Source of the DNA: Gaertneriomyces semiglobifer
Taxonomy: Eukaryota; Chytridiomycota; Chytridiomycetes; Spizellomycetales; Spizellomycetaceae
Assembly: GCA_025558075.1 (NCBI GenBank)
Contig: JAHLKF010000039.1
Span: 28,024 to 92,023 of the forward strand
DNA length: 64,000 bases
Direction: 5' to 3'
The notes under the pieces were generated by a model. That model was not told the origin of the DNA. It made no database searches and saw only the letters and a program-made list of their open reading frames with translations. Shown here piece after piece: positions 47,026 to 64,000 of this stretch. Positions within the stretch are counted from its first letter, which is position 1. Each line of letters starts with the position of its first letter. A program made the translations under genes and the position numbers.

Positions 47026-47080
47026 GTCGGTGTCTCCCTTTTCACCTCTACCTACACCTTATCATTTTCTCACAGTCATC

Positions 47081-48880: not shown

Positions 48881-48983
48881 TGGATCCAAGTCTCCCTGGT
48901 TCTCAGATAGTGTCCTTCTTTACGAATGGATTTTCATATGATAGTGGGCAACAATGACAGTTGTAGCTTTTATTATAGAATCA

Positions 48984-49232
48984 TTACATAACTTTGAAGC
49001 GTTTAGCACTTGAACCTGGCCCCATTGACAGCGTAACTGGTAAAGTCCTTTTGTTTCGGTTGTTTACAAAGTCGTAACGGGCCAAACTCGCCTCGCGTTC
49101 CACTAAAACTCCCAAGGTGACGCACCAAGCAATACCGTTTAAATCCACCTCCATACCCGTACCTCCGTATTTCAGTTGAAGGTCAACAGCTTGCACATTT
49201 CCAGCGCTCGTTGTCACAGTGCAGACCGACAT
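48984..49232 (-). CDS. Small hypothetical ORF at the right side of E1
   Basis: From the ATG at 49232, inside the palindrome, 82 residues are open (SVCTVTTSAGNVQAVDL, NGIAWCVTLGVLVERE, ending SSAKRFKVM). The frame continues further upstream only through repeat sequence. It may be the surviving C-terminal end of a larger virion protein cut by the repeats. No family recognised. Confidence 0.3.
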   Translation of the reverse strand: MSVCTVTTSAGNVQAVDLQLKYGGTGMEVDLNGIAWCVTLGVLVEREASLARYDFVNNRNKRTLPVTLSMGPGSSAKRFKVM

Positions 49233-49264
49233 TGCATATGCAATGTCGGTCTGCACTGTGACAA
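49211..49264. repeat. Perfect 54 bp palindrome
   Basis: Two 27-base arms pair without any mismatch or spacer around the centre GCATATGC; the arm includes CACAGTGCAGACCGACATTG. Checked base by base from 49211 to 49264. Such a sequence can extrude as a cruciform and is a candidate replication or end structure of E1, or a rearrangement joint. Confidence 0.95.
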
Positions 49265-49321
49265 TGGACATTGTTGAGTCATATGGACATTGCTGACTGA
49301 CAATGGACATTGCTGGCTCAA

Positions 49322-49594
49322 AATGGACATTGTTGAAATCTGGGTTAATTTCGCATATTCTTTGCACTGACATTCTCAACCCGAAATGGACATTGCTGGT
49401 TCAAAATGGACATTGCTGAAATCTGGGTTAATTTCGCATATTCTTTGCACTGACATTCTCAACCCGAAATGGACATTGCTGAAATCTGGGTTAATTTCGC
49501 ATATTCTTGCACTGACATTCTCAACCCGCGACCATTCTGGACATTGCTGAAATCTGGGTTGAGTTAGAATATTTTCCTTATGTCAATCTTAACC
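49322..49594. repeat. Tandem repeat, four units of about 62-66 bp
   Basis: Units start with variants of AATGGACATTGCTGAAATCT and end in TCTCAACCCG or TCTTAACCCG, at about 49322, 49405, 49467 and 49529; a 21-base partial unit separates the first two. Each unit has GGGTTAA near its start and AACCCG at its end, so single units can fold back. The last unit is the most diverged. Confidence 0.8.
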
Positions 49595-49599
49595 CGCAA

Positions 49600-50265
49600 A
49601 ATCACCTACCATGTATTATCTAGCGCCTCCTTCCTCTTGACCTTCCAATCCCTCCATATTTCATCGAGTGCCGCCCCTATGAAACTTCCGCGTCCTGCCG
49701 CACCTATCCATGTCCTTATATATGCCTCGTCTTCATCGATAAGTCCAGAACTCTGACATCAGACACTTATCGATAAATCCTCAATGCTTCGCGCATATAT
49801 CCTATGAACCTTATCAAATCAAACGCGCGCGTTCATTTCGTCGATAAACGGCCCTCGCCTATGGCGCTACGGGACTTGTATTCGTCAACGCATTTCCCAT
49901 GTCCTTATATATGCCATTTCATTTACGAATATTTCTGCTAACCCAAATCTTCAAAAACCTCGATTTTTTTCGATCGCCGCTCCTTTGAGAAATTGGGTCA
50001 CCTATTTTCGCCTTTTTACTTTAGTTTCTTCCTGCTTTCTTAAAAAAAACCTTTTCTAAATCCCTTTTTTCTTCCTTTTTTTTAACGCTATATTGCTTTT
50101 CCCGCTGACCCACTTACCCATTTTTCTTCGAAAGAAAAAATAATATACGCCCCTTCACACACTACTTCATAAGCATCTCCATTAAGCAAAAGTATGTTAT
50201 ATACACACAAAATCTATCGAGCCAATCCCTCAACCGGTCTGGGTCAATACAACTTTTACAGGCTT
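49600..50265. other. A/T-rich junction between E1 and E2
   Basis: No gene. An inverted pair ATCGATAAGT (49735-49744) and ACTTATCGAT (49765-49774) lies here, then T-rich tracts at 50030-50160 that may hold 3' ends. The left boundary of E2 is probably in this stretch, but no terminal repeat could be fixed. Confidence 0.4.
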
Positions 50266-50922
50266 TTACTGGCCCCGAGACAACTTTCTAAAATAGCACT
50301 CCTCACAGAACTTGTGGAAGCCGGGTTTCTTGCTTGATGTCATTCGAGGACAGTTTTTTGTCGAACAGGGACGATTTTGTGCATTTTTTGATGTTGCTTG
50401 CTTGAAAGGTACTGGCTTGCTATTTTGATTTTCCTTAGACCAACACGGAGGACATTTTGGTTTCCACTTTCGGTCCTTTTCTTCGCAATAAAACCATTTC
50501 TGACATTTGGTTTGTTCACATTTTTTGTAAGAGTTAAAACATCTATTACAGATTTCGACACTTTTCGCCGTCGATTTTAAATAACGTTTCTTGCACTTTG
50601 GAATCTGACAATCCCATGTCTTTCTTTTGAGGATGCGGAGTTTTTCAAGTGCCAGGTCCCGTTGGGCTTGAGGGAAAAAGTTCTGTATGCATTTGTTGCC
50701 AATAATGAGACGTTTCCCATTTTCACTCGATACCACTTCACATATTTCCTTAATATCATGGGTGCAGATGCATTTGACGACTACGTCACTTTTGTAAACA
50801 TTCTCCACACAAAATTCGAGTATAGCCTCGCGATAGTTGTCATGGTTGGAATGTTTGACTATTTGCTGTCGAAAGATTTTGTGGTAGTACTGAGCGTCCT
50901 GTTCGTCACTATCGTCTGCCAT
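50266..50922 (-). CDS. Multi-zinc-binding E2 protein
   Basis: From the ATG at 50922 (MADDSDEQDAQYYHKIF), 218 residues. An early CICTHDIKEICEVVS with LIIGNKCIQNFF resembles the CICGxxI...IVGxxCI module of NCLDV and PLV proteins. It is followed by at least three Cys clusters (CQIPKCKKR, EICNRCFNSYKKCEQTKC, KCPPCW) and a terminal CSTKNCPR..FCEECY. Likely nucleic-acid binding or transcription related. The frame runs upstream to 51066, but the sequence there is A/T-rich leader. Divergent from the primase gene. Confidence 0.6.
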   Translation of the reverse strand: MADDSDEQDAQYYHKIFRQQIVKHSNHDNYREAILEFCVENVYKSDVVVKCICTHDIKEICEVVSSENGKRLIIGNKCIQNFFPQAQRDLALEKLRILKRKTWDCQIPKCKKRYLKSTAKSVEICNRCFNSYKKCEQTKCQKWFYCEEKDRKWKPKCPPCWSKENQNSKPVPFKQATSKNAQNRPCSTKNCPRMTSSKKPGFHKFCEECYFRKLSRGQ

Positions 50923-51184
50923 TAGAAATACTGCAATTTTTGATTTGGAGTTACCCAAGTGACCCAGTTTTTCCTGTTTTAATATGTAAGTGCAGATGTC
51001 TTTATATATGGTATGTTCAGTCGATAAAATAGATGTAAAATACGCGCAAAAACATCGCATATACATGTGTCTTCTGCATTAGATACCTTTTTTTAGATGT
51101 TTAAAAAAGACATATAAAGGTTAGAGGTTATATCTGTTCTATAGGGGGGTCTGTCAATTTACTTTTCTAATCAAAAGACCTAGA

Positions 51185-53710
51185 ATGAGTTTGGAAGGTG
51201 TCATACTCGATCAATTAAAGTCAGCAAAGGCAAAACTGTTAAAAAAGGGCTTTGTGCCGATTCCAGCACATCCGAAGGAGAAAAGACCTTTGGGCGATTG
51301 GAAGGAATACAATGTATCAGATTGGAATAAGGTTTTAAAGTGTTTACGGGGTGTGAGAAGTAATATTGGGGTTTTGACTGGAGAAAAATCGGGCATAGTT
51401 GTCGTGGATATCGATAAGAAGGAGCCGAAAGAAGATGAAGCGCCCAACGATGACTATAGCGCTGAGACCGGTCTTTCAGATTGGCAGGAAATGATCAAAG
51501 AACATGGGGATCCAAAGACACTCAAATGCAGATCACCGTCAGGTGGCTTGCACTACTACTTTCGATGGGATGATGAATTGGGACAATCAGTAGCGACGAC
51601 CTCCACAAGAGTAATGTCAAGGGCCGATGGACGTTTGTGTGGGATCGATCTTCGTGGCGATGGAGGATTTATTATGGCACCTCCGAGTTCTATCAAAACT
51701 GGAAAGTACGAATGGTTGGATGAAACTGAAATAGCACCCTTGCCCACATGGATTCGGAATAACATCCTCAAAACCTGCAATGGGCTTAAAAAGGCTCGAC
51801 ATGAAACAAAAGTAAAAAATCACTTCATCAATGCTTTCGCAAATGATTCAATAACATTGGAAGATTTTGAGGTCTTCAAAACCTCTCCATATTATCAAGA
51901 TCATGAAGTTGTCAATGTCGATTCGTACAGTCGAATAATTTTGAAAGAAACCAAGGATTTTGACTGTACGATATGCAAGCGTAGACATGTCAACCACAAG
52001 AACCACCCCTTCCTGGTTCGATTTGGTGGTAAATTGTTGTTTGTCTGTCGTCCCAACAATGGAGACCAAAAACATAATGTGATTGTCAAAAAGGAAGAGG
52101 AAACAAGTAATGAAGACGATGTCAAAGATACCCCGCATTATCTGTTGATGTCCGAATTATGGACTATTGCAAAACGAGACTCATTGAAGAAATACAACAA
52201 TTGGATATACAGGCCTCTTGAAAACAAACCATGTGCGTACGTCAAATATCTTTCCTACCAAGAATGGGTGAACAAGGTGTTGAGAAAGAACAAAATCTAC
52301 GTGTCAGCCCCAAAACGACACTTGGATATTCTGAAACACTTGGAGATGTACAACGACCCAGATCTTCCTTTTCTGCAGCGCGACCGCAATGTGATTGCCT
52401 TTCGGAATGGTGCGCTACTTCTTGATACGAATACATTTGTTCCTTATTCTGATGCGACTTTGAAGGGAGTGGCTGCCCGACATTGTATTGACCAAGACTT
52501 TACCAAGAGCGACTATACTCCAATGTTTGATCAAGTTGTCATGCATCAACTGACAGGATACGATCAAGAAGAGCGTAAAAACATTTACAATGTTGTTATC
52601 GGGTTAATTGGACGATTATTCTTTGATGTTGGACAGTATGACAAGTGGGCAGTCGCACTTTTACTATATGGAGAGTCACGCACCGGAAAGTCGACATTAC
52701 TCAATATCATAAAAGCAATGTTCGATATTTCCGAAGTGGCAATACTGGCTGCGAACACTGAGAAGATCTTTGGCTTGGAGAATATCATTGGAAAAGAACT
52801 GCTATTGGTTCCGGAAATACCTCACAATATGAAGGACACATTTGATCCTACGATGCTTCAATCAATGATTGACGGTGACTTTGTCAATGTCGCGGCCAAA
52901 CATGCGAAAGCGACCACTGGTGCCTTTAAAACACCTATTATGATGGCGGGGAACGTGTTTCCTAACTATGATGATAAGAAGGGAGCCATTGTGAATCGTG
53001 TGCCCATTTTTGTGTTTGAAAACTTTGTTACTGATAAAGACACCAGCATTGAGGAAGTAGTCATCAAAAACGAACTGCCAAACCTTATATACAAGTCATT
53101 AAAAATATATTATATATTGAGGGAATCCCACAAGGGACAAAGTTTCTGGGACTTTGCTCCAGTGTACTTTCGAGACAATCAAGAAATTGCAAGAAAAGCG
53201 ACCAATTGGTTGCATCGATTCCTCACTGCACCTGCAGAGGAAAACGCCTCTTCTACGGCTTCGTATTGCGTCAAGAAAAAAGTGCTTCCAGGCGCCGATA
53301 GAATCAAGGTTCATATCGAAGACGTGAAAAAGGCCTTCATGCGTTATATGAAGTTTAATCATCCAGGGCAGAAATATACATGGGACGATAACGATTATTC
53401 GACTTTCAAAAGTCTTGGATATGAGGTCGAGAGAATGCATATATGCAAATCTTGCAACAATCGTGCAAAAGGAGGTAAAGATAAATGTTGTGAGGAATAC
53501 GATTCTGCAAACCGAACAAAGCGCACCTTCATATATGATCTTTTGATTGACCGTAATGAAAAATCGACATCCACATACAAGATCGTCCCAGATGCTGAGG
53601 AAATGACAGTGGATCTGGAACCAACTTCGCCTCCACTTATCAAAAAACGCTCCATTCTTGATGGACTCGCTGGTTCGGGAGCAAAACGATCACGTATCAG
53701 GGACTGCTAG
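51185..53710 (+). CDS. Prim-pol and SF3 helicase replication protein of E2
   Basis: 841 residues. The N-terminal prim-pol domain (PF09250-like) has GFVPIPAHPKEKRPLGDW, the catalytic VVVDIDK at about 72-78, SPSGGLHYYF at about 117-126 and GIDLRGDGGFIMAPPS at about 153-168. A zinc-binding segment (CTICKRRH ... LLFVCR) follows at about 260-290. The C-terminal SF3 (D5-like) helicase has GESRTGKSTLLN at about 497, ELLLVPEIP (Walker B-like) and IMMAGNVFPNY (motif C). It primes and unwinds DNA for replication of the element. No DNA polymerase domain is fused or nearby within E2. The gene is intact. Confidence 0.88.
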   Translation: MSLEGVILDQLKSAKAKLLKKGFVPIPAHPKEKRPLGDWKEYNVSDWNKVLKCLRGVRSNIGVLTGEKSGIVVVDIDKKEPKEDEAPNDDYSAETGLSDWQEMIKEHGDPKTLKCRSPSGGLHYYFRWDDELGQSVATTSTRVMSRADGRLCGIDLRGDGGFIMAPPSSIKTGKYEWLDETEIAPLPTWIRNNILKTCNGLKKARHETKVKNHFINAFANDSITLEDFEVFKTSPYYQDHEVVNVDSYSRIILKETKDFDCTICKRRHVNHKNHPFLVRFGGKLLFVCRPNNGDQKHNVIVKKEEETSNEDDVKDTPHYLLMSELWTIAKRDSLKKYNNWIYRPLENKPCAYVKYLSYQEWVNKVLRKNKIYVSAPKRHLDILKHLEMYNDPDLPFLQRDRNVIAFRNGALLLDTNTFVPYSDATLKGVAARHCIDQDFTKSDYTPMFDQVVMHQLTGYDQEERKNIYNVVIGLIGRLFFDVGQYDKWAVALLLYGESRTGKSTLLNIIKAMFDISEVAILAANTEKIFGLENIIGKELLLVPEIPHNMKDTFDPTMLQSMIDGDFVNVAAKHAKATTGAFKTPIMMAGNVFPNYDDKKGAIVNRVPIFVFENFVTDKDTSIEEVVIKNELPNLIYKSLKIYYILRESHKGQSFWDFAPVYFRDNQEIARKATNWLHRFLTAPAEENASSTASYCVKKKVLPGADRIKVHIEDVKKAFMRYMKFNHPGQKYTWDDNDYSTFKSLGYEVERMHICKSCNNRAKGGKDKCCEEYDSANRTKRTFIYDLLIDRNEKSTSTYKIVPDAEEMTVDLEPTSPPLIKKRSILDGLAGSGAKRSRIRDC

Positions 53711-53922
53711 GTTTCCTCATCACTTTCCGAGTCAGGTACCAGAACATAGTCTTTGACTTCCCGGCGCTTGCTCCAGCATTCGAGACAATAAGGGCGGCCT
53801 TTCATCTTTGGAATAATGGTAGGGCAGTCATCTGTCTTGCACTTTTTGCAGCGATCTGGAATAATTAAATTACCTTGTTTATCGCGCTGGGGTGTGTATA
53901 CGGGGAACGTCTCTTTGGCCAT
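53707..53922 (-). CDS. Small zinc-ribbon protein of E2
   Basis: 71 residues with CKKCKTDDCPT and YCLECW forming one likely zinc site, then an acidic tail DSESDEET. It overlaps the 3' end of the primase gene by 4 bases on the opposite strand. The ending of the protein at 50266 carries a similar CSTKNCPR..KFCEECY pattern, so the two may be related. Confidence 0.55.
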   Translation of the reverse strand: MAKETFPVYTPQRDKQGNLIIPDRCKKCKTDDCPTIIPKMKGRPYCLECWSKRREVKDYVLVPDSESDEET

Positions 53923-54032
53923 GTTGTACTTTCTTTAAATAGGAAATGAGGGAATAAATCACATGTGCGGTTGGAACAGAACTTATACATTCTGTATAAT
54001 GTTTAAATAGGATTTTTGATAGTTCTTTGTAA

Positions 54033-54308
54033 ATGTTCGAATTCAGCGATTCATATTATGATACGCCTAAAGAATGTGTTCAAGTGACGTGTTTAGAGTT
54101 GTTCGACGCATTAAAGCCAGAGTTTCAGGAACAGTTTGTGAAAGATCTTGAAGAGATGAATACGGAAAATGTGGTGGACGAAGGAACATTCAAAGTTCTG
54201 AAATGGTCGCTTCTATTCAATAAACTGAGTTCTCAATACAAGGATCATGTCAAAGTTGAAGAAGCACCAAAGAAAAGAAAGGGCAAGAGCAAAGCACCCA
54301 GCATCTAG
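54033..54308 (+). CDS. Small hypothetical E2 protein (91 aa)
   Basis: Helical, acidic N-terminal part (VTCLELFDALKPEFQEQFVK) and a basic tail (KKRKGKSKAPSI). TTTTTGATAG lies about 17 bases before the ATG. No family recognised. Confidence 0.45.
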   Translation: MFEFSDSYYDTPKECVQVTCLELFDALKPEFQEQFVKDLEEMNTENVVDEGTFKVLKWSLLFNKLSSQYKDHVKVEEAPKKRKGKSKAPSI

Positions 54309-54634
54309 GGTGCTTAAATATACTGTTACTCGGTATATAGGTTTCTATGATGTATTGATGTACATCACAGGAATCCTGTGGAGCATGTTATTAGTCGATA
54401 TGCTCAGACCGGTTACTTGTTGGTTTATGGTGGCTTCAACGTAGTAACAAAAAATGCCTATAAAACAAATCTTAATCAGAACGAGCACTGATTTGGGATG
54501 TAGGGAGCACCTTGATGCTCCCAATCATATGTTCTGAAAAAAAGATTTGTCCTAAACGCAACCTATACATCAGCAAAGACTCCACCAATGCTCAGCGTAA
54601 CATTCTCGTAGTAGTTCACAAGTAAACGAACCGA
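54309..54634. other. Spacer between convergent E2 genes
   Basis: Non-coding; a GGTGCTTAAATA region and an AGCACC..GGAGCACCTTGATGCTCC foldback at about 54487-54520 may mark 3' ends of the facing transcripts. Confidence 0.35.
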
Positions 54635-55744
54635 CTAGGGAAGAACAGTGTCATGAATCGTGGCAATTTTAAGTGACGAATTTGTTCCTTCAAATGACAA
54701 ACCAGCGCTCGAAGACTCGGTACGGTCTTGGAACGACCAGCCAAAGGAGAATTGCTTCTTGTCATAATCAGCAAATGAGATATCCATATCGCCGAGACTG
54801 TCAAAATCAGTCTGCGATAACAGACTGGCGAGCAATGTCTGATTGTCGGTTGTTGAATGCTTGAAGCCGGCTTTCCCGCTGGGAATTGCGGTCATACCAA
54901 GAACAAGACGCCACTCCCTGAGATCCCAAGAGGAATAGTTCAAAGCAGCATCCTTTGTAGTATCAGCATTTGCGTCAACAAACATTGCATCAAATCCCTG
55001 CAAGGATCGCACTCCGGACATATTCAGATTAAAAATATTCTTTTCAGTGCCAGAAGCCGGCACCAGAGCCTGGGTTGTTCTCGTATACTCATAGGAGATG
55101 GCTCGAGTTGCATTAACGAACTGAGGGCTCGGAGTATGATAAGGCATCAAGAGCCTAATGTTGCTGACACGGATTTCGTCCACATTCCCATTTGGGAATA
55201 CGGAGGCTGGGTGTGCAAGGGCGATGGTGAACTCCAGTGTCTGGTCCGGGAGTGCAAACACGTGAAAGAAATTTTTATTCTTAGGATTACAAAAACCAAC
55301 CCATGGATGCATGTTCATGGAGACAGTTGCTCGAGTGTCGAATATATTATCGTTTGAATAACCGCTAAGTTGTCTCAACAATTTCTTATGTCCGGCCGAC
55401 ATGTTCTTGTAGATGCTGCTCAAGAAAGCCGGGTAGTTATGAATTTTCTCAACAACTTGCCCTGCGGCCGTGATAGTCAAAGACTGAATGATGGCCTCAA
55501 GACCGAGATAAGTGTTCTTAATATCGGCACCAGGAGTAATAGCGGTTCCGTTGTTATATGCGGAAACATCCATGGAGAGGACCATTTTTGTAAGGTCAAA
55601 TGATGTCGTGCAAGAATCACATACAATACGGATGGGAGTCGAACTGCGGTCCTTTGAAGAATATTCGGCTTGATCGGTAGGAGAGAAGGTATGTATACCC
55701 TTTCCCAAAGGGTCACCAAATTGCCGAGCAGGAATCTCAGACAT
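54635..55744 (-). CDS. Major-capsid-type protein 1 of E2
   Basis: 369 residues, about the size of PRD1/STIV-type double jelly-roll capsid proteins. It shares with the protein at 57934 the same series of motifs: STPIRIVCDS; TAAGQVVEKIHNYPAFLSSI followed by KKLLRQLSG; FALPDQTLEFTIAL; VDEIRVSNIRLLMP with HTPSPQF; DLREWRLVLG; and a final strand LKIATIHD. The ATPase gene lies directly upstream on the same strand. Capsid identity comes from length, position and the paralogy; the jelly-roll fold itself cannot be proven here. Confidence 0.65.
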   Translation of the reverse strand: MSEIPARQFGDPLGKGIHTFSPTDQAEYSSKDRSSTPIRIVCDSCTTSFDLTKMVLSMDVSAYNNGTAITPGADIKNTYLGLEAIIQSLTITAAGQVVEKIHNYPAFLSSIYKNMSAGHKKLLRQLSGYSNDNIFDTRATVSMNMHPWVGFCNPKNKNFFHVFALPDQTLEFTIALAHPASVFPNGNVDEIRVSNIRLLMPYHTPSPQFVNATRAISYEYTRTTQALVPASGTEKNIFNLNMSGVRSLQGFDAMFVDANADTTKDAALNYSSWDLREWRLVLGMTAIPSGKAGFKHSTTDNQTLLASLLSQTDFDSLGDMDISFADYDKKQFSFGWSFQDRTESSSAGLSFEGTNSSLKIATIHDTVLP

Positions 55745-55807
55745 GGAACGTTTCTTTTGATAATAGAAAACGAGGTAATTTATTAGTGCTGCGTTTAAGG
55801 CCCATGC

Positions 55808-56542
55808 TTATTCTGTGCTCGGTTTTCCCTCGGTGAACACGTCCTCATTCTTTGGTGTCTTTAGATCAATGTAGAGGAATGAATACGGTTCTTTTGTTGC
55901 TCGATCTGCAACATCGATAAACTCGCGTTCAGTGAGGTGACATCTCAGTTCAGGTGCGATCTTTTCATATTGCTTCATATTCAGTCGATAAAGAATGACG
56001 TGTGTGTTATTGACACGCTGCAATGGTGTCATTTGCAGAGTGTCATGGAAGGAGCACATTAATGAAATGCCGCTGTGTCTCGCTCGAGAGTACAGAGTGT
56101 CCAGCATCTCTTTGATACCGCTGGATATTTCTTCATGTTTCTTGAGTTCCTTCTTCGGGTCATTGCCGGTCTGTCTAGCGAGTATTCCATAGTCGTCGAT
56201 AACAATAAGAATGTGTTGTCGTGTTTTGTCTGTTCTGTAGAGCATGCGTTGTTTTTCAAACAAGGCGTTGAGGACATGGTTGGAGACTAAATGAGAAATG
56301 TATACATTGTTCTTTCGCTTAAGGCTGCTCCAAATGGGATCTTCAATGGAGGGTGTAAATATGCACACCGCAGAGTACGCTGGAGCAAGTTTCTCGATAA
56401 GGTTGACTTGACAAGTTGTTTTACCGGATCGTGAAGAGCCGACAATGGAGAGAACAAAGAACTTTCTGGGAAATCCGTTCGGTGTCTTATCAACGAGTTT
56501 TACCTCGTTTTCTTTGGGGATCTTTACCTTGTGAATGTACAT
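55808..56542 (-). CDS. A32-type DNA-packaging ATPase of E2
   Basis: 244 residues: Walker A VGSSRSGKTTCQVNL at about 32-46, Walker B ILIVIDDYG, a GIKEMLDTLYSRARHSGISL helix with CSFHDTLQMTP (sensor region), and the C-terminal YSFLYIDLKTP typical of A32 ATPases. It would translocate genome DNA into the capsid. Intact and intronless, unlike the E1 homologue. It is divergent from the penton-like gene across 53 bases. Confidence 0.88.
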   Translation of the reverse strand: MYIHKVKIPKENEVKLVDKTPNGFPRKFFVLSIVGSSRSGKTTCQVNLIEKLAPAYSAVCIFTPSIEDPIWSSLKRKNNVYISHLVSNHVLNALFEKQRMLYRTDKTRQHILIVIDDYGILARQTGNDPKKELKKHEEISSGIKEMLDTLYSRARHSGISLMCSFHDTLQMTPLQRVNNTHVILYRLNMKQYEKIAPELRCHLTEREFIDVADRATKEPYSFLYIDLKTPKNEDVFTEGKPSTE

Positions 56543-56595
56543 AGCGGATTAATTTCTTCTTAATAGTATAACAAGCAACATATTTTGTCGTCTAT
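56543..56595. promoter_or_regulatory. Shared divergent promoter, ATPase and penton-like genes
   Basis: Only 53 bases separate the two start codons. The interval contains TTTCTTCTTAATAGTATAAC. A very similar core (GTCTTCTTAATAAGACTCG) lies between the divergent genes at 60954 and 61001. Confidence 0.5.
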
Positions 56596-57345
56596 ATGTA
56601 TAGAGAATATATTCTGAATACGGCCATAGTCGGGGACTCGAGCAATGCTACATTCTATATCTCTCCTCCTCAGAGCATCTATGCATTCCGTGTGATCTCG
56701 GTGAATTTCATTCAATCGTGGGACATGATGAATAGTACTAACAATACCATCCTCTTTGCAGAGATGGGCGACACCACTCCACGAAAAGCCACAATCGCAC
56801 CGGGACATTACAATGCGTTTAATATTGGTGCAGCAGTAGCAACTGCAATGTCGGGTGCAGGATCGCAGCCATATACCTGCACCTATGACGAGCGAACTCG
56901 ACGATTGAGGATCGAAACGACAGGAAGTAAAGAGTTCAAACTGATTGAAGGTGCACGAGGTAGCACTGCATACTTGCAACTCGGAATGAGTAAATCGAGC
57001 GAAAGCGGTTACGCATTACCGGGCTTTACTCTGCCTGCTCCTTTGAATCTATCTGCAAGTCAACCGATTCTTCTCACTAGCAGAACTCTGCAAACGTCAA
57101 ACGGAATTACATATGTTGCAGGAATTAACAGTGATATCAACGTACTGGCGTGTATCACACCGGACTCCTTTAATGATGTAGTGTCCTGGGTAAACCCGAG
57201 TGACAAAATGTTCCAGACGGGAGAAATCAGCATGAGTTCTATTGACATCCAATTATTTGACAGCCAAACGATGCAACAAATCAAGACCACTGCTCCAATC
57301 GTTGTTGTTCTTGGTGTGTATGATGATCCTGCAGACCTTTTTTGA
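56596..57345 (+). CDS. Penton/minor-capsid-like protein of E2
   Basis: 249 residues. After an N-terminal strand region (ATFYISPPQSIYAFRVISV) comes APGHYNAFNIGAAVATAM, then CTYDERTRRLRIETT and TAYLQLGM. This is the 'gYYt...l...in' and 'f.y....k.tit' layout seen in penton or minor capsid proteins of polintons and polinton-like viruses. The C-terminal part ends in strands SSIDIQLFDSQT and PIVVVLGVYDD. Neighbours are the ATPase (divergent) and the K/E-rich gene, 41 bases downstream. Confidence 0.65.
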   Translation: MYREYILNTAIVGDSSNATFYISPPQSIYAFRVISVNFIQSWDMMNSTNNTILFAEMGDTTPRKATIAPGHYNAFNIGAAVATAMSGAGSQPYTCTYDERTRRLRIETTGSKEFKLIEGARGSTAYLQLGMSKSSESGYALPGFTLPAPLNLSASQPILLTSRTLQTSNGITYVAGINSDINVLACITPDSFNDVVSWVNPSDKMFQTGEISMSSIDIQLFDSQTMQQIKTTAPIVVVLGVYDDPADLF

Positions 57346-57386
57346 AGTTTTTTTTTCTTGATAGTGTTCAAGAAATCAACGATAAA

Positions 57387-57875
57387 ATGGAAGAAGAACA
57401 GCAAAAATCGATCGCCACAGCCCATCCCGAGGTTGAAGCAAGCGCTGCACAGGACACAGTACATGAAAATGTACAGGATCACGCGGAGGATGCTCCAAAG
57501 GCGAAGAGAAAGATGACTGAAAAGCAAAAGGCGGCACTCGACGCGGCTCGAGAGAAGCGCACAGCGCGATTGCGCGAAATGTCGAAGCAGAAGGCTGAAG
57601 AGGATGAGAAAAAACGGCTTGAGGAGGCCAAGAGACTGCTTCAGGAGGAAAAGGCAAAGAAGAAGGCAGCGCGATTAGCAAAGGCAGCAGCAAAACCACC
57701 CAAGAAGAAGCCAGTAAAAGCAAAGGCGCCAGTTGAACCAGAAGAGGAACATTCACCTCCCAATATAAAGATTCAGCCAACAAATCCAATTGCCTCAAGA
57801 TTATACGATCAGCAGGCCGAGGTCGCATTCAATAATCCTTATGATGTTATTTTTGGAAATACATACAGAAGGTAA
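57387..57875 (+). CDS. K/E-rich coiled-coil protein of E2
   Basis: 162 residues from the ATG at 57387; upstream in-frame codons are non-ATG. AKRKMTEKQKAALDAAREK starts a long charged helix rich in Lys, Glu and Ala, then a Pro/Lys linker, and a C-terminal NNPYDVIFGNTYRR. It parallels the E1 protein at 38445. It lies between the penton-like and second capsid genes, so a virion-core role is likely. Confidence 0.6.
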   Translation: MEEEQQKSIATAHPEVEASAAQDTVHENVQDHAEDAPKAKRKMTEKQKAALDAAREKRTARLREMSKQKAEEDEKKRLEEAKRLLQEEKAKKKAARLAKAAAKPPKKKPVKAKAPVEPEEEHSPPNIKIQPTNPIASRLYDQQAEVAFNNPYDVIFGNTYRR

Positions 57876-57933
57876 AGACATTCCGAGTACTGAATATTTT
57901 TTTAGTTGACATCTTGTAAGAAAACCCTTCAAG

Positions 57934-59181
57934 ATGTCAATTAACAATCAAACTTCCGGTAGTACTTATCCCGTAATTCCTGCAAATTGGATCTATGCAT
58001 CTCGTCAATTTGAGATGAACTCGGACGCTCTCTCTGAAAATGTTATGATTTATCGCCCAGTCAAGGACAGGCATGACTCAAGAGCCGCCGGATCTCCTAT
58101 CAAGGTGGTGATTGACTCTCCAAGTTCCTTTCTAAGGCCGCAAAGAACCTATATGTCATGCAGGATCACTCATTACAATTCAGACAGTTCTCCAAATACT
58201 AGCGTCACATCCAGCGATGTTGGATTGATGTCCCATTTTAGAACAGCGACACTACGAGTTTCGGGAAAGATTGCGGAAGAATACAGTGATTACCCTGAGC
58301 ACTTGAGTCAGCAATATACCTATGAAACTGCTGCAAGACGCAAGTATTTGCGATTGCTCGAAGGGGCTGGAAATGCCGACGCCATTAAGAATGCTAACGG
58401 TTCTGCTATTGTCCGCCATCACTTACGCTTTGGATTGCTTAACAACGTTAATGGGAACCCTTTACCCCTGTGCCTTTGCCCGAACCAGGCGGTGGAATTG
58501 ACGCTTACATTGAACACTCCCCAGCAAGCAGTTACTAATGCACCTAGTGGAGGTTATTTTGTAGTGGATGATGTCCGAATCGTTGCCCAACTGGTAACTC
58601 CAGCAGCCGAGTTCTTATCTTCCGCATGGGCAGGTATTCGAAACGGCAAGTACCTAGAACTAGATTACGTTGCAGGCGTTCAAACCACGAACCCATGTAG
58701 TGGCGCGACTCAAAATAACTTTATTATTCCTCTCAGCAACAGTCGAGTGGTAGGACTGATGCATCGCTTTAGAAGGGATGATGCTTACTCGACTACAACG
58801 GGGGATAAATCATTGATTTATGATAAGGCAAACCTGATCTCTTGGAGATACCAGTTGGGTCAGTGGAGATTGCCCTTGACAGAGGACTTTAAGGTAGAGG
58901 ATGCATTGATCAACGGTGCTTTATCGATGTCGGATTCAGAAAACTATGAAACTGAAGATGTTGACTTTGATAACTTTGACTCGAAGCGCTTTACCATAAG
59001 ACACAATTTCAAATCGATTGATGAAGAGATGTCGAGTGCTTTAAATTTAACAGGGTCAGATGGTAACCTCCGTTTGATCACCACTCATGCAAGCCCACCT
59101 CCCTCAACGAGCGTGTCTCTTCTAACCTCTGTTTTCGTGCATAGGACGCTCTTGATTGGAAATACGATAGATATAGTCTGA
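57934..59181 (+). CDS. Major-capsid-type protein 2 of E2
   Basis: 415 residues, paralogous to the protein at 54635: GSPIKVVIDS; RVSGKIAEEYSDYPEHLSQQ then RKYLRLLEG; LCPNQAVELTLTL; VDDVRIVAQLVTPAAEF; IPLSNSRVVGLMHRF; LISWRYQLGQWRLPL; LRLITTHA. About 28 extra residues follow the last shared strand, giving a hydrophobic tail (LLTSVFVHRTLLIGNTIDIV). It may form capsomers with or instead of its paralog. The gene is intact, with start ATG at 57934. Confidence 0.65.
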   Translation: MSINNQTSGSTYPVIPANWIYASRQFEMNSDALSENVMIYRPVKDRHDSRAAGSPIKVVIDSPSSFLRPQRTYMSCRITHYNSDSSPNTSVTSSDVGLMSHFRTATLRVSGKIAEEYSDYPEHLSQQYTYETAARRKYLRLLEGAGNADAIKNANGSAIVRHHLRFGLLNNVNGNPLPLCLCPNQAVELTLTLNTPQQAVTNAPSGGYFVVDDVRIVAQLVTPAAEFLSSAWAGIRNGKYLELDYVAGVQTTNPCSGATQNNFIIPLSNSRVVGLMHRFRRDDAYSTTTGDKSLIYDKANLISWRYQLGQWRLPLTEDFKVEDALINGALSMSDSENYETEDVDFDNFDSKRFTIRHNFKSIDEEMSSALNLTGSDGNLRLITTHASPPPSTSVSLLTSVFVHRTLLIGNTIDIV

Positions 59182-59287
59182 TTCCACACTTGTGGAGCGA
59201 AAGACCGATAAATGTGAAAACCTTGTTTTTTGATGGATCATAAAATCTATCAAAACACAATGATCATGGTGTTGGGGGACCAACGAC

Positions 59288-59446
59288 TTACTTCATACGT
59301 TTAAGCACGTAGGGTAAAAGTTGGGGAGGGACTTTGCTAAGATCCTTCTTTCCTTTCTTAGGAGGAGGTCTAATTTTTTGTGAGATAGTGGCCCTCCAAT
59401 TGGGGGATGGAGCAATTTTAGACGCTTTCATTCTTTTACCGGGCAT
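59288..59446 (-). CDS. Very small basic protein of E2 (52 aa)
   Basis: From the ATG at 59446 to TAA at 59290-59288. Begins MPGKRMKASKIAPSPNW and contains RPPPKKGKKDLSK, ending VLKRMK. It is strongly basic, as expected for a DNA-condensing core peptide like those of adenovirus-type virions. It sits between capsid protein 2 and the Pro-rich gene, in a 300-base interval that would otherwise look empty. Confidence 0.55.
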   Translation of the reverse strand: MPGKRMKASKIAPSPNWRATISQKIRPPPKKGKKDLSKVPPQLLPYVLKRMK

Positions 59447-59488
59447 TCTATGATATACGGGTATTATCTACTTATAAGCAACACTATT

Positions 59489-60517
59489 TTATTTCTTTCT
59501 GATGTAACCTTTGTTGCTACGAGCATCTGGTGGCCGATAATCCACATCCTTCCTCTTTCGTGTGCTTCGTCTCAAAGCAGGAGGATTTGCAACAACTGGT
59601 GTCGACACCAGCCCCGAGCCTGGGGCAGGCGGGACTAGGGGTGTGGATGCAGTATGAAGCGGTGTTCCAAAAGCCGGCATTTGTGGAGCGGTGGAGACCG
59701 GACCAGGAATATTCTGTTGAGATGCCCGAGGTGTCGGAGTGGGCTCAATTGGTGAATGTATGTAGGCACCTGGAATGGTCACTTGTGGATTCAGCAAACC
59801 TCTGCGTGCTGCAACCGATGTGGGAAGGATTCGCCTTGGAGAAATACCTGGACTTGAGCCGGGAGAAGATGATGCAGAGGAAGATGAAGATGAGGATGCT
59901 GAAAAAGGCGAACCTCCTCCTCCACCAGGAGGCCGCCACCAACCCATGTTTGGATCGTGGTTTGGCACCAAAGGTGCTGCTAGGAGATGCATTCTTACTC
60001 TTGCTTCGTGGTCGTCCTCAACGGGGCGCTTACTCCATGGGCCTGTCGATGGGGCTCGAAGCAGATGGGTTCTGGTGTATAACTCTTCATCACTGTTTTC
60101 CTTTGGAACCTTTGGCCATTTGATTTTTTTAGAATCCGGTTGCTTCGGAGGGTCATATTTAGTTGGCGACGGATATTTCACATTATCAACATCCATTGGC
60201 TCCAACTTGTACTCTGCGGGTTCCGCCTTCACATCAATATCCATGGGGCTTGTTCTAAAATCTTTTGTGACTGAATCCGATGGGAACTGAATAGGAGATG
60301 TTGCATGTGATTGAAGTTCGACCTTGTTGGTGGAACCGATCCGCCCTACTTCTGTAGACGTTTGCGTTCCGGCATCTGTCATGTTGATCGTGTGGTTCTG
60401 TCCTAGAATGACATTCTTTTCCTTTGCATTAGCAACCTCTGGAGCCCGAGGATCTGTTGCTCTTTCGACTTTCTTTGTGGTGTCACGAGAGTTTGATTTT
60501 GTTGCGCTCGCATCCAT
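59489..60517 (-). CDS. Pro/Ser-rich hypothetical E2 protein
   Basis: 342 residues from the ATG at 60517. Largely disordered: PMDVDNVKYPSPTKYDPPKQ, a Gly/Ser run (FSASSSSSSSASSSPGSSPG) at about 210-230, then TPTPRASQQNIPGP and a basic end LRRSTRKRKDVDYRPPDARS. It overlaps the upstream gene (60954) by 115 bases in another frame. No domain recognised; it could be a virion or nuclear-entry protein. Confidence 0.5.
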   Translation of the reverse strand: MDASATKSNSRDTTKKVERATDPRAPEVANAKEKNVILGQNHTINMTDAGTQTSTEVGRIGSTNKVELQSHATSPIQFPSDSVTKDFRTSPMDIDVKAEPAEYKLEPMDVDNVKYPSPTKYDPPKQPDSKKIKWPKVPKENSDEELYTRTHLLRAPSTGPWSKRPVEDDHEARVRMHLLAAPLVPNHDPNMGWWRPPGGGGGSPFSASSSSSSSASSSPGSSPGISPRRILPTSVAARRGLLNPQVTIPGAYIHSPIEPTPTPRASQQNIPGPVSTAPQMPAFGTPLHTASTPLVPPAPGSGLVSTPVVANPPALRRSTRKRKDVDYRPPDARSNKGYIRKK

Positions 60518-60954
60518 CCTGGTTGGTGGAATGCAGAAGTTGTCCCGTCGCTGTTAACTTGAACAGCGACACTTCTAGGCAAATTGATATATCGTCCCTT
60601 TCTTGGAAAGAGATTGCCTTCATCAAGTTCGTCAAAGTATGCTTGTCTTGACTTCTCTTTCTCGACAGCAAGGAATGCAGCAACTGCATCTTTTTCGACT
60701 TTGCTTACATAGTCCGCTTCTCTGAAGCGAGGGTTGCCATTGGGGTTGAACTTGAGATCCGTGGTGACACTTGATACCTCACCTTTAGGGACGAAGAAGT
60801 GATCACGGAATTCTCGATTGAAAGTATTCTCAGGACCTGGCTTCCCATCGATAAACCCATATTGTCGTGCTTGGATGTTGGGAATAGGACGGTCCGGAAA
60901 GCCAGTCGGGTTCCATATCGGCAGTCTTAAATTTTCATTGTAGACAGCACTCAT
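60403..60954 (-). CDS. Hypothetical E2 protein (183 aa)
   Basis: Starts MSAVYNENLRLPIWNPTGFP, followed by a region with REFRDHFFVPKGEV and DLKFNPNGNPRFREADYV and a helical KDAVAAFLAVEKEKSRQAY. The last 38 codons overlap the start of the next gene. Divergent from the small amphipathic protein at 61001 across 46 bases. Family not recognised. Confidence 0.5.
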   Translation of the reverse strand: MSAVYNENLRLPIWNPTGFPDRPIPNIQARQYGFIDGKPGPENTFNREFRDHFFVPKGEVSSVTTDLKFNPNGNPRFREADYVSKVEKDAVAAFLAVEKEKSRQAYFDELDEGNLFPRKGRYINLPRSVAVQVNSDGTTSAFHQPGWMRAQQNQTLVTPQRKSKEQQILGLQRLLMQRKRMSF

Positions 60955-61000
60955 TTTTTTGTATAGTCTTCTTAATAAGACTCGTACAAGATAATTTCAG
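60955..61000. promoter_or_regulatory. Shared divergent promoter with palindromic core
   Basis: 46 bases between two start codons. The core GTCTTCTTAATAAGAC is a near-perfect palindrome (GTCTT..AAGAC) and resembles the interval at 56543-56595. Confidence 0.5.
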
Positions 61001-61303
61001 ATGGCCAATTTTTTCCAAAGAGTGAAGGGCAAAGCCAACACCTTTTTCAAGAATGCACCAGCCAATATAACAAAAGCACGAAATTTCTTTTCAGGAGCAG
61101 TTAAAACCGCTGGAAAGGCAAATCGCTTCATTCAACATGTAAACAAGGGTGTGCAAGAGAATGACGTTTTTGGAGCCAAAGTCAAAGACGTTGGAAAGCA
61201 GGTGTCAGACTTTTCAGATATCGGGTTGAAAAAGATCCAGGATGTTCACGAGAAAGGAAGCAAATTTGCCGATCACGTTGCTCGATTTGATCCAAACGCA
61301 TAA
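61001..61303 (+). CDS. Small amphipathic basic protein of E2 (100 aa)
   Basis: Starts MANFFQRVKGKANTFFKN and repeats Lys/Val/Gly helices (FFSGAVKTAGKANRFIQHV, KVKDVGKQVSDFSDIGLK). Small amphipathic proteins of this sort lie inside virions of adeno-like and polinton-like viruses, where they can act on membranes. No direct homology could be shown. Confidence 0.5.
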   Translation: MANFFQRVKGKANTFFKNAPANITKARNFFSGAVKTAGKANRFIQHVNKGVQENDVFGAKVKDVGKQVSDFSDIGLKKIQDVHEKGSKFADHVARFDPNA

Positions 61304-61338
61304 TATTCACTCCTTGAAGATATAGAGATCTCCCAGAT

Positions 61339-62577
61339 ATGGCAGACATATTTCAGCGAAGAAATTACTTCAAGCCGATCTCTGAAGAGGATGAACGGAA
61401 CTTGAAAGAAATGTTCTATTCCGACATGGCTTTCATGGGACGAGATCGTCTATGGCATTTATTTAAGAGCTGATACCCTGATAGCAAGATATCGCAGAGG
61501 GCCGTGCTAGATTGGTTAAAAAAACAGGAAATCCATCAAAAGATGACTAGGCCTATCGTATCAAAGGGTGGGATACGACCGATTTTGGCTTCGAAGCCAG
61601 GTTCGCTGCAGATTGACACGATAAACATGAGTTCTGTTTCATATAACGGCTACAGTTATATAGTGAATGCTATAGACATTCTCAGTAAGCGACTATATTC
61701 TCGAGCGATTCGGGCGAACACTCAACAAAACATTCGTAATTTTCTTCAATCGCTCGTAGATGATGGAGTGCAAATCAGATCGATCCAAAGTGACAACGGT
61801 GTCGAGTTCCAAGGGATAGTTCAGGAATTTGCAGGATCGAGGGATATCCCATGGCGTTTCAGCAAGGCGGGTTCACCGCAAACAAACGCGCTGGTAGAAC
61901 GCATGAACGCAACACCAAAAAAAATGATCTATTCGTCGATAAAACTTGGAGACCGTAATTGGGTAGAGAGTCTGCCGAAGATTGTCAATAATATCAACTC
62001 GACGGTGTCGTTTGGGGCGGGGCGCAAACTTCTCACACCAGATCAAATTGAACGCAATGTAGAAGAAAGTTATCGAGCGCAGGTTACTCTGAGGACAAAA
62101 GGGCGAGGAGTAAAAGTGCTTCCACCATTCAAAGTTGGGGATCGAGTGCGGCTGCTTATACAAGAGAACACGGACATTCGACGACCATCGAAAACAGGAT
62201 ATTTTGGCGATGAAATTCATACGATCGAGGGAGTTGTTCCGAACCCACACCCGAATTACATGGATGCGTACAAGTTATCAGGACAACAAGGGCTCTTTGC
62301 CGCATACCGACTCCGATTAGTGCCTGAGGGTACTGTAACCACACCATCAACTGTTGAAGATAATGATGACAGCGATCAAGACACTGGAAGCGAAGGAGAT
62401 TATGAGGTCGAAACAATATTGGATAAGCGCACTCGACGCCAACGAAGAGGCCAACCTCAAGTAACAGAGTATCTTGTTCTATGGAGAGGATATGATCGTA
62501 GTGAAGCGACATGGGAGCCGGTGTCAAACCTACAAAACGCTCGAGAGGCCATATATGCGTTTGAAAATACCCACTAG
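61339..62577 (+). pseudogene. Retroviral-type (DDE) integrase with chromodomain, interrupted by UGA
   Basis: The frame starts at the ATG at 61339 (MADIFQRRNYFKPISEEDE), meets an in-frame TGA at 61471-61473, and continues in the same frame with PDSKISQRAVLDWLKKQEIH (HTH/zinc-type N-terminal region). The catalytic core then reads LQIDTINMSS (first Asp), IQSDNGVEFQG (second Asp) and TNALVERMNATP (Glu). The C-terminal chromodomain reads YEVETILDKR ... TEYLVLWRGYDRSEATWEP. Polinton integrases have this design. The stop removes the active site from the N-terminal part, so the gene is probably dead. Confidence 0.88.
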
Positions 62578-62601
62578 AACTACGATGTAAGCGAAAATCA
62601 T

Positions 62602-62621
62602 CGATGTAAGTATTTACATCG
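62602..62621. terminator. Hairpin after the integrase gene
   Basis: CGATGTAA and TTACATCG pair over 8 bases around a 4-base loop, just after the integrase stop. It may mark a 3' end; the repeated GATGTAA at 62583 and 62625 is unexplained. Confidence 0.35.
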
Positions 62622-62642
62622 TTTGATGTAATTTTATTTTCC

Positions 62643-62650
62643 TATATAAG
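62643..62650 (+). promoter_or_regulatory. TATA box of the tyrosine recombinase
   Basis: TATATAAG lies 58 bases before the ATG at 62701. Confidence 0.45.
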
Positions 62651-62700
62651 AGGAAGGTACAAGTGTATAACAACGTCCATTGTTAGTATCAAAATAGACA

Positions 62701-63749
62701 ATGTCAGCCGAAGCAGGAACAAAGCGCAAGTTCTGCGAGTATTCATTGGAGGAAATTGCTCAAATCAAGAAATTACAACCCAACCATAACATTGTTAAGA
62801 CTTTAAAGAACCAACTGTTAGTGGAAGATATCGACGAGATCATTGGTGATCCTCACCTTCTTATTGAGTTTTACCGTAAGCCTTTGAAACACCTGAATGA
62901 GAATTCCTTCGGCAATTATGTGGGCTACATGGCCACATTCTTAAAGCAATGCAACGAGAAAGGTGAACTCGATCAGGAGATGGATAAAGTCATTGAAGTA
63001 CTGCAAAAGGAAGCAAAGGAACTACGGGCTCCTGCTGCTGAAAAACGTACTAAAGGAGAACCTAGTGAGCGTGAATTGAAACAAGGCGTCACCGGTTTCC
63101 AATTCCCAACCATCCTTTCAGCAGTTGAACGGAATTATGAACATGTTGTCAAGGGCTTGTTCTTGAAATCAGAGATCCACAGGCTTCAAAAGCAAGAGTA
63201 CATTGAACTCCTCCGCGGCGTCATTCTGTGTGCATGTACTATGATGCCAAACATCCGCTCCATGTGGACTCGAGTAAAAGTGTCGCCATTCAACACTGAC
63301 ACGGAGGATGGCATTCTCTTCTCGAACGAACGTGCGATTCTGATGTTCAATAGTAACCGAAAACGACAACATGATCCTTACATTCAAGATATTAAGGATC
63401 CCAAATTGTTCCAAATCCTAGTGAAATGGAAGCGGTTCCTAAATCGTCAATTTCCAAATGGGACCACGTACTTCTTTGTGGACTTTTATGGCAATCAGAT
63501 GACACCTCAAAAGTTCACAGGATACATTCAAGAGTGTTGCAACAAGTTGGTACAAAAGAACTTGGTATATCGGATTTGCGACGTATGCAGATTACCGATT
63601 TAATCAACAAGCATGGCAATAATCCGCCATACATCAATGCAATTTACAAGGATTTCCATCATACTCGCCAGGAGTTCGACAGGTATTATAAGACAAACAA
63701 TGTTGACGTAGAACCGGTAGATGATTCCTTCTTTGATGTGGACGAGTAG
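62701..63749 (+). pseudogene. Tyrosine recombinase of E2, frameshifted near the active site
   Basis: The first frame (62701-63603) has an N-terminal helical, Lys-rich region, then the catalytic-domain start (EYIELLRGVILCACTMM, SNRKRQHDPYIQDIKD) and GNQMTPQKFTGYIQECC. The C-terminal catalytic end follows in another frame: GISDLRRMQITDLINKHG then HHTRQEFDRYYKTN, giving the R..H/K..R..H..Y pattern with Tyr in the final YY. The shift is near 63540-63570. As it stands the catalytic Tyr is not joined to the body. The family is the virophage/PLV-type integrase group. Confidence 0.7.
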
Positions 63750-63854
63750 CAGAGTTCGTGTTAGTTACAAAGGCGGTTAGAGCATCCCATAAATAGTTAT
63801 CGATAAATGTGGTTTATCGATAAGGCTTGTCTTTTATTGTGTTTAATACAGGTT

Positions 63855-63872
63855 CAAACGCGAATGCGTTTG
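63855..63872. terminator. Hairpin after the recombinase region
   Basis: CAAACGC and GCGTTTG pair over 7 bases around GAAT. It lies after two TTATCGATAA motifs at 63797 and 63814 and before a T-rich stretch. A 3'-end signal or part of the element end is possible. Confidence 0.35.
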
Positions 63873-63925
63873 TTCTTCAAGTTTATTTTTATTTATTATG
63901 GTCTCCATAAGTAAATAAAAAGGAG

Positions 63926-64000
63926 ATGCCAAAGCGATACGTTTATCGAGCAGTAGCAAAGAATCTGGACGGAACGGAAACAGTTGTCGAGTCCAGATTA
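63926..64000 (+). CDS. Partial ORF running off the window
   Basis: Opens with the ATG at 63926 (MPKRYVYRAVAKNLDG) and stays open to the last base. Too short to assign; it may be another E2 gene or the first flanking gene. Confidence 0.35.
   Translation, partial: MPKRYVYRAVAKNLDGTETVVESRL

Follow-up and report, generated by a model that had tools for sequence, protein, structure and literature searches.

A polinton-like virus with palindromic ends integrated in the genome of the chytrid Gaertneriomyces semiglobifer

Analysis of a 64,000-nucleotide stretch of the Gaertneriomyces semiglobifer genome (contig JAHLKF010000039.1; hereafter the window) revealed a genuine endogenous polinton-like virus (PLV), E2, inserted into an older element of the Polinton type, E1. 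The window is best explained as carrying the leftmost 14.8 kb of a PLV insertion whose full size is about 23–24 kb. The contig ends within the element, leaving the right end of this copy unassembled on its own contig, and complete relatives, of which this genome contains six, measure 23.0–24.3 kb; the "compact 14-kb block" with a "near-complete" gene set of the original prediction is thus a copy cut by the contig end. E2 is one of a large population of such elements in this fungus, apparently recently mobile: the A32 ATPase has 35 matches in the host's own genome, and all six complete palindrome pairs enclose one. The search for chytrid relatives also disclosed homologs of E2 proteins in several genera. 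What is new here is the palindromic ends, chytrid PLVs as such being already known; the suggestion of a new lineage in fungi was overtaken by a Spizellomyces punctatus PLV group described in PMC7805220, and by a homolog of the E2 369-aa protein already named as the hexon of a Powellomyces MELD virus. Taken jointly, we hold it to be probable that E2 is a capsid-coding PLV with palindromic ends that enters by a DDE integrase, would be copied by fold-back and may be excised through its palindromes.

E1 (positions 36299–49211; left boundary approximate, left end multi-copy) is a pPolB element with matches to PF03175 DNA_pol_B_2 (E = 1.2e-33, 40899–43889) and Pox_A32 (E = 2.7e-6, 46234–46686). E2 was inserted into it with a 5-bp duplication, CTCGT, the left copy of which lies at 49207–49211 and the right copy on contig C32, where it follows the right end of E2. 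Four E1 copies show the uninterrupted target site with a single CTCGT, one of them with an adjacent mismatch, and because they run through it continuously, E1 and E2 as one large virus was ruled out. The C35 element is flanked by the duplication ACGAT and has its uninterrupted site at C7:28322; other 5-bp duplications were CCGTG and AACGG on C21 and CTCGT on C38. Where both flanks of a complete element were read in place, three of five had an exact 5-bp repeat, one had 4 bp (ACGG, C6), and one (C31) had none and inverted flanks; inverted copies of the flank also border the C35 element. CG is present in 8 of 10 duplications, compared to 20% of the 5-mers in the window. Terminal inverted repeats with a target-site duplication, which serve to recognize PLVs, were observed. 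Entry by a DDE integrase is well supported, since 5'-TG...CA-3' ends and a 5-bp duplication are the outcome of a retroviral-type integrase and the element encodes such an enzyme with a chromodomain. This chromodomain, together with the CG-containing targets, makes chromatin- or methylation-guided insertion testable.

That the genome contains both target-site duplications and uninterrupted sites supports integration into the host at the level of the assembly, in favor of the original prediction that a PLV resides in a fungal genome, which gene content and capsid fold also bear out. Contamination or an assembly product, in which fungal contigs had been fused with a free virus or other foreign DNA, would fit the six contigs that end at the same element base and the excess of left junctions (seven) over right junctions (one). 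A 1.5-kb comparison showed no differences in E2 for C19, C30, C34, and C47 and 98–100% identity for C2 and C59, while the E1 flanks vary from 86 to 99.7% per 300 bp (59% in one C19 window), a pattern expected of a collapsed repeat; between C59 and the window, 3.5 kb of sequence contained three indels and lacked substitutions. Against an artifact, the 5-bp duplication is precise, its uninterrupted counterpart occurs four times on other contigs, and complete elements are internal to C6, C21, C31, C35, and C38, so that we consider an artifact of this kind highly improbable. The location of E2 copies at contig ends also prompted the idea of a chromosome cap, which was rejected: five contig ends examined carried no telomere repeat, and complete copies lie inside contigs. 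TTAGGG had 597 matches in total, and among those listed, runs occurred on C4, C9, C11, and C13, those on C9 and C11 extending to the contig end. That six contigs stop at one element base is better explained by an assembly that broke within a repeat than by the telomere idea.

E2 starts with a perfect 52-bp palindrome with TG...CA ends (49212–49263), of which a single strand is predicted to fold at -30.9 kcal/mol (z -12.5), and subterminal tandem repeats of TGGACATTG units occupy 49259–49597. The complete relatives have a palindrome of 49–66 bp at each end, immediately inside the duplication where one is present, and most element ends overall are perfect or near-perfect palindromes of this length with TG...CA termini. 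Their outer 12 bp are constant and their interiors family-specific, yet these interiors remain symmetric; 23 of the 28 element-associated palindromes examined are perfect. A search pattern that leaves the interior unconstrained was found 41 times in the 20.9-Mb genome, and its reversed form not once; the pattern occurred once in the GTDB species genomes (257 Gb of prokaryote DNA) and was absent from IMG/VR. Exact matches to the E2-type inner end carried the full palindrome in 11 of 13 cases, the two exceptions being C42 and C65. Reduced ends also exist: at its right end, the C6 68014 element retains the first 12 bp only, the E2-like copy at C6:639122 has no palindrome, and half of one is found at C35:89656. 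No published report of palindromic PLV ends was found in a literature search of incomplete coverage, so we make no claim of their absence from print.

Eight palindromes stand alone, four with exact 5-bp flanking repeats (chance 3.9e-10) and four without. These lone copies, and the E2-type ends that lack a palindrome, could suggest that each palindrome is a tiny inverted-repeat insertion in its own right that lies at an element end by chance. This explanation is very doubtful, as the 5-bp repeat in complete elements with duplications brackets the whole 23–24-kb unit and not each palindrome, and neither palindrome nor element is present at the uninterrupted sites; among the element-associated palindromes examined, none was itself bracketed by a 5-bp repeat. 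A more serious alternative, although still an unlikely one, regards the palindrome as a circle junction: a circular episome with one palindrome would be nicked by the integrase at CA on opposite strands flanking it, fill-in would give a palindrome at both ends, and the tyrosine-recombinase-like protein would reverse the reaction. This scheme accounts for TG...CA on both sides, for the C35 element having the same palindrome at either end, and for lone palindromes with duplications, and needs no replication hairpin. It does require a staggered integrase cut of 50 bp, for which we know of no precedent, and leaves unexplained how palindromes stay perfect despite interiors that differ between families. 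Nor does it explain why the central base differs between the ends of the element at C6 678337–702586. In odd-length palindromes (12 ends in two families), a hand tally showed that the central base varies only between A and T, and the two ends of that element have opposite states; these flips could instead be ordinary changes.

The gene content of E2 agrees with a PLV. From the left, it encodes a 266-aa cysteine-rich protein (50266–51066, - strand) with no family match in profile searches, and an 841-aa protein (51185–53710, + strand) in which a primase-polymerase (PF09250, 3.6e-26) is fused to an SF3-type helicase (PF19263, 4e-11). The replication protein is thus of the Prim-Pol and DUF5906/P4-type helicase kind and not pPolB, as in PLVs, with relatives in Phlyctochytrium, Gaertneriomyces, and Rhizophlyctis; the primase-helicase of the C35 copy is a different one. 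A conserved 91-aa frame (54033–54308, +; 81% identical in C35) precedes the 369-aa capsid paralog (54635–55744, -) and a 244-aa A32-type packaging ATPase (55808–56542, -; PF04665, 7.1e-7, above the cut-off), the latter also expected of a PLV. A 249-aa protein (56596–57345, +), 98% identical in C35 with a pN/pS of 0.07, is a penton candidate by position only, and profile and sequence searches gave it no family match and no meaningful sequence match. It is followed by a 177-aa lysine/alanine-rich protein (57342–57875, +; 83% identical in C35, no family match), the 415-aa capsid protein (57934–59181, +), a 342-aa low-complexity protein (59489–60517, -; open frame 89% identical in C35), an overlapping 183-aa frame (60403–60954, -; 93% over 156 residues in C35, one stop in the alignment), and a 100-aa small basic protein (61001–61303, +; 99% identical in C35, pN/pS 0.03). 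The integration enzyme typical of PLVs is encoded at 61504–62577 (+), an RVE-type DDE integrase (PF00665, 1.4e-10) with a C-terminal chromodomain (PF00385, 3.3e-15), whose PDB matches include chromodomains and PFV integrase. A tyrosine-recombinase-like protein (62701–63749, +) is named from a motif, its profile searches having given no supporting match, and its frame is broken in the window and intact in C35. At 63926–64000 (+), the contig end cuts a gene start with a product of about 95–100 aa, to judge from open frames of 102 (C35) and 100 (C59) codons. The gene list of the original prediction therefore stood for the capsid paralogs, ATPase, Prim-Pol/helicase, and integrase, with penton and tyrosine recombinase remaining candidates. 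An Rfam search yielded a single tRNA and nothing else.

A predicted structure model shows the 415-aa protein to be a capsid protein of the double-jelly-roll type, as had been anticipated for both large proteins. Its 369-aa paralog was folded alone and gave a model too poor for use, and belongs to the same fold family by profile homology (hhalign to alignment A2, E = 3.4e-60). This paralog is C-terminally short compared to relatives (alignment A1), and is 57–60% identical by alignment (55–58% by BLASTP) to three S. punctatus proteins and 55% identical over 97% to 'hexon [Powellomyces chytrid fungus MELD virus 5]', one of six such taxa (viruses 1–6) in the database. A PDB sequence search with both capsid profiles gave no match. 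The right arm of the complete relative examined closely encodes an additional 1773-aa fibre-like protein with two F5/8C domains, a gene present in many copies, and the C35 copy has an inner inverted repeat of about 860 bp. E2 might also be an ordinary Polinton/PLV-type transposon that moves within genomes only, its capsid genes being passengers with no virus stage. The many chromosomal copies agree with this, as does the lack of any IMG/VR relative to four E2 protein queries and one fibre query, each searched via a few short peptide patterns, and to two pattern scans. We regard a purely transposon existence as improbable, given the strong purifying selection on the ATPase, 249-aa, and 100-aa proteins between the window and C35 copies (pN/pS 0.08, 0.07, 0.03, and 0.20 for the four genes computed), the recurrent fibre-like gene, and the homologs in several chytrid genera. 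The virion shell of the PLV would be made of the two double-jelly-roll paralogs and filled with DNA by the A32 ATPase, and the long F5/8C protein would act as host-attachment fibre.

In the cycle we propose, linear DNA ending in 5'-TG...CA-3' would enter the chromosome by means of the chromodomain DDE integrase. As a primase-helicase is present and a protein-primed polymerase absent, the ends are likely copied by hairpin fold-back, which would regenerate exact palindromes. Recombination between both terminal palindromes, possibly performed by the tyrosine-recombinase-like protein, may then remove the element and might leave one palindrome behind, flanked by the former 5-bp repeats. The palindromes fit covalently closed hairpin ends, as judged from integrated copies. 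The joint scheme of two recombinases, in which the DDE integrase inserts linear DNA with hairpin-derived palindromic ends at CG-containing sites, the primase-helicase copies by fold-back, and the tyrosine recombinase resolves or excises with single-palindrome scars, is offered as tentative.

To our knowledge, how PLVs without a protein-primed polymerase maintain the ends of a linear genome is an open question. The G. semiglobifer genome provides a record bearing on it, with dozens of palindromic ends, complete elements that agree in size, target sites free of an insertion, and scars of a single palindrome, and the palindromic ends suggest an unexpected route for such viruses to enter, copy in, and leave chromosomes. 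One large protist survey of such elements excluded fungi by design, according to PMC10120064. Here, DNA elements with capsid genes are numerous in an early-diverging fungus, and some of them lie within others.

Mriyaviruses possess an HUH endonuclease–SF3 helicase fusion; no HUH domain was detected among the proteins scanned, and the N-terminal domain of the E2 helicase protein is Prim-Pol. E2 resembles Polinton/Maverick elements in its RVE integrase, A32 ATPase, double-jelly-roll capsid, and inverted terminal repeats, and differs in its 5-bp duplication, its palindromic ends, and the lack of a detectable pPolB: none was found among the E2 and C35 proteins scanned (the right arm of the window copy is missing), and the window's one PolB is that of E1. 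Instead of the 6-bp duplication of Polintons, 5 bp were found at C21 (two), C38, C35, and the window copy, and 4 bp at C6. RVE integrases usually duplicate 6 bp and PLVs 5–6 or about 4–6 bp, according to the accessible text of PMC12220804, which mentions neither hairpin nor palindrome. Ginger/Gypsy-type integrase transposons share a Gypsy-like DDE integrase and 5'-TGTNR termini with E2; TDD-4/5 make 5-bp duplications, and Ginger1 targets CCGG (75%) or CCGT/ACGG (24%). Unlike E2, they are small cut-and-paste elements without capsid genes, and no terminal palindrome is mentioned in the accessible part of PMC2836005. The S. punctatus PLV group (Bellas & Sommaruga 2021, PMC7805220) is likewise integrated in a spizellomycetalean chytrid, E2 being likened to it through single S. 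punctatus proteins only; in the accessible text of that study, 52% of the group carry a chitinase, three of all the integrated elements studied have 5–7-bp duplications, and hairpins are not mentioned. Trimcap PLVs of the same study have three capsid paralogs per genome compared to two in E2, both more than one, and the Powellomyces viruses, with the hexon of MELD virus 5 resembling the 369-aa protein, are known here by database names. Although E2 differs from the hairpin-ended large DNA viruses (pox-, asfar-, and chloroviruses) in being integrated, in its 23–24-kb size and 5-bp duplications, and in that its hairpin is proposed where theirs is reported, it shares with them, as far as the accessible part of PMC11814242 describes, a terminal fold-back sequence with inverted repeats and an NCLDV-like capsid fold.

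E2, the polinton-like virus (PLV) at the right end of the window, lies within E1, an older Polinton proper at 36241-49211 (left boundary approximate) that carries a viral-type PolB (PF03175, E 1.2e-33) and an A32-like fragment. E1 has many copies in the genome, and the window copy is split into several frames. The left end of E2 is a perfect 52-bp palindrome (49212-49263) with CTCGT just before it; together with one base on each side, it is the sole perfect palindrome with arms of at least 12 in the window. The window (C39:28024-92023, from a 20.9-Mb assembly of 66 contigs) stops at the last base of its contig, and the opposite E2 end was located at the start of contig C32, followed by CTCGT and then more E1. 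A single CTCGT, without interruption, was present in four E1 copies (exact on C1, C7, and C38, and with one mismatch on C20), which are 97-99.8% identical to both E2 flanks. A search with the right flank returned five matches, namely these four copies and C32. The ends of E1 start AGAGAAGGGG or close to that, and no palindrome of the E2 kind was found in five end stretches and the window. A 57-bp sequence left of E1 (36242-36298) was also found alone elsewhere, and three times on C6 at 3.9-kb spacing.

The gene list of the original prediction proved real for the most part. Profile matches backed the Prim-Pol/helicase, the A32 ATPase, and the chromodomain integrase, and the structure predicted for the 415-aa protein is a double jelly roll, whose structural neighbours are NCLDV, virophage, and PRD1-type capsid proteins; the 369-aa protein is paralogous to it. 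The 249-aa protein is a penton candidate by position and conservation only. The "tyrosine recombinase" is a candidate by its catalytic motif only. Named relatives of both capsid proteins were chytrid only, as were all named Prim-Pol relatives above 42% identity, which appeared alongside unnamed metagenome proteins. The proposal of a compact 14-kb unit did not hold, as the element continues beyond the window and a pair of palindromes encloses a complete relative on C35 (91630-115205).

A query with the E2 ATPase gave 35 matches in its own genome: eight full-length at ≥90% identity (six identical in protein), seven full-length at 63-73%, five fragments of close copies, and fifteen at 26-32%. Six contigs (C2, C19, C30, C34, C39, and C47) break off at one shared E2 base, past which C59 extends the element by a further 1,443 bp. 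Left E1-E2 junctions were seen on these seven contigs and a right junction on one (C32); across the seven, the E1 flanks differ, and E2 varies little or not at all from the palindrome inward. This pattern may reflect a repeat collapsed in the assembly, or invasion at E1 with copying of the chromosome arms.

The right arm of the C35 copy, missing from the window, contains a 420-aa frame and a 1773-aa protein (length taken between stop codons) in which two F5/8 type C domains were recognized (PF00754, E 1.1e-12). The same arm holds a response-regulator receiver domain fragment (C35:108339-108938; PF00072, E 1.3e-11), to our knowledge unusual in elements of this kind. In the left arm, an 824-codon frame (92879-95350) of other sequence that shares the helicase family (PF19263, E 6.9e-19) occupies the position of the E2 Prim-Pol frame (window 51185-53710), and no match to the E2 Prim-Pol turned up in those stretches of C35 that were searched. 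The remaining genes compared share 81-99% identity, so the two copies differ by a swap of the replication gene. One of these genes, the 183-aa frame, has a stop in the C35 copy. The four genes computed show a strong excess of synonymous over non-synonymous change, with pN/pS of 0.08 (ATPase), 0.07 (249-aa), 0.03 (100-aa), and 0.20 (integrase).

A palindrome pattern starting TGTCACAGTNCA, in which only the outer 12 bp per side were forced, matched 41 palindromes in the genome; the reversed pattern matched none there. The palindrome pattern had no match in IMG/VR and one among 84,980 prokaryote species genomes. Flanks and symmetry were read in detail for 36, the other five being E2 left ends on C19, C30, C34, C47, and C59, whose left flanks were read separately. 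Of the 36, 28 adjoin element sequence and eight stand alone; 23 of the former and two of the latter are perfectly symmetric. By interior sequence the palindromes form several families, 49 to 66 bp long, so both arms have changed together. Besides C35, palindrome pairs bound complete elements at C6 678337-702586, C21 208585-232812, C21 232949-255938, C31 95887-120214, and C38 38781-62205, for six elements of 22,990-24,328 bp. Each encloses an A32 ATPase match, and because four of these are only ~27-32% identical to the E2 ATPase, the palindrome-bounded architecture is shared beyond E2's own family. A full palindrome accompanies 11 of 13 exact E2-type inner-end matches (exceptions on C42 and C65) and is lacking from an E2-like copy at C6:639122; the element from C6 68014 retains just 12 bp at its right end, and C35:89656 is half a palindrome. 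At C6:654037, an E2-type copy appears to have been invaded by an element of another PLV family, the end of which bears a perfect palindrome of its own, giving an element within an element. The C35 element lies between inverted flank copies (C35:89687-92542 and 114293-117148) with 2.86-kb arms, 100% identical, as does the C31 element (95887 and 120158; 20 bp read), which may be due to fold-back at the palindrome, to terminal-repeat exchange, or to the assembly.

The duplications and uninterrupted sites carry our main claim. Both flanks were read in place for five complete elements. Exact 5-bp repeats border three of these (CCGTG, AACGG, CTCGT), a fourth shows a repeat of four bases (ACGG), and C31, with its inverted flanks, has none. 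Uninterrupted sites settled the C35 and window copies, bringing 5-bp duplications to five elements; for C35, ACGAT is framed by the outermost left junction and the right junction, and its uninterrupted target occurs once, on C7. Exact 5-bp repeats also flank four of the eight lone palindromes (ACGTT, CTGGG, GCGGT, GTGGG; chance 0.0015 each); the other four lack one, with C2:866463 matching 4 of 5 bases. CG occurs in 8 of 10 duplications, including the 4-bp one, versus 20% of window 5-mers (P 8.9e-5); the ten do not all count as separate observations of a single enzyme. A 1.2-kb dispersed repeat (C7:28321-29514 and copies) is a recurrent insertion target, with at least three insertions (C35 ACGAT, C21 CCGTG, C21 AACGG).

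The TG...CA ends and the short duplication, taken with a Gypsy-like integrase, point to integration by the element's own DDE integrase; the combination is known, Gypsy and Ginger termini being TGTNR (PMC2836005). The outer 12 bp do not vary across families and are best interpreted as a predicted end-recognition site of this integrase. The palindromic interior calls for a second cause. A terminal hairpin copied by fold-back would yield perfect palindromes with no per-base selection, leaving the interior free to drift, and would fit a genome that encodes a primase-helicase but no protein-primed polymerase. The palindrome could instead be the junction of a circular episome, opened by integrase nicks on either side, which explains nearly as much. 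For the hairpin, the central base of the two odd-length families, counted by hand outside-in at 12 ends, was T in eight and A in four (4 + 2 per family); C and G were absent, and the two ends of the C6 678337-702586 element differ, one having T and the other A. This may be the flip-flop expected of a hairpin or a simple change.

The original suggestion of a possible new PLV lineage in fungi needs correcting: PLVs in chytrids are already known (PMC7805220), and chytrid relatives, the Powellomyces MELD viruses, are already named in databases. Several capsid genes per element (PMC7805220) and 5-7-bp duplications (PMC7805220, PMC12220804) are likewise known. Within the literature searched, the following are new: palindromic PLV ends, lone palindrome scars, uninterrupted sites that reveal a PLV nested within a Polinton, a full-length form of 23-24 kb encoding a long fibre-like protein, and the exchange of a PLV replication gene. 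E1, which has PolB, lacks such palindromes at its ends where read, whereas most ends of E2-type elements are palindromic. Recombination between two such ends, for which the recombinase-like protein is the obvious, if unproven, candidate agent, would leave a lone palindrome between 5-bp repeats, comparable to the solo LTR left by recombination.
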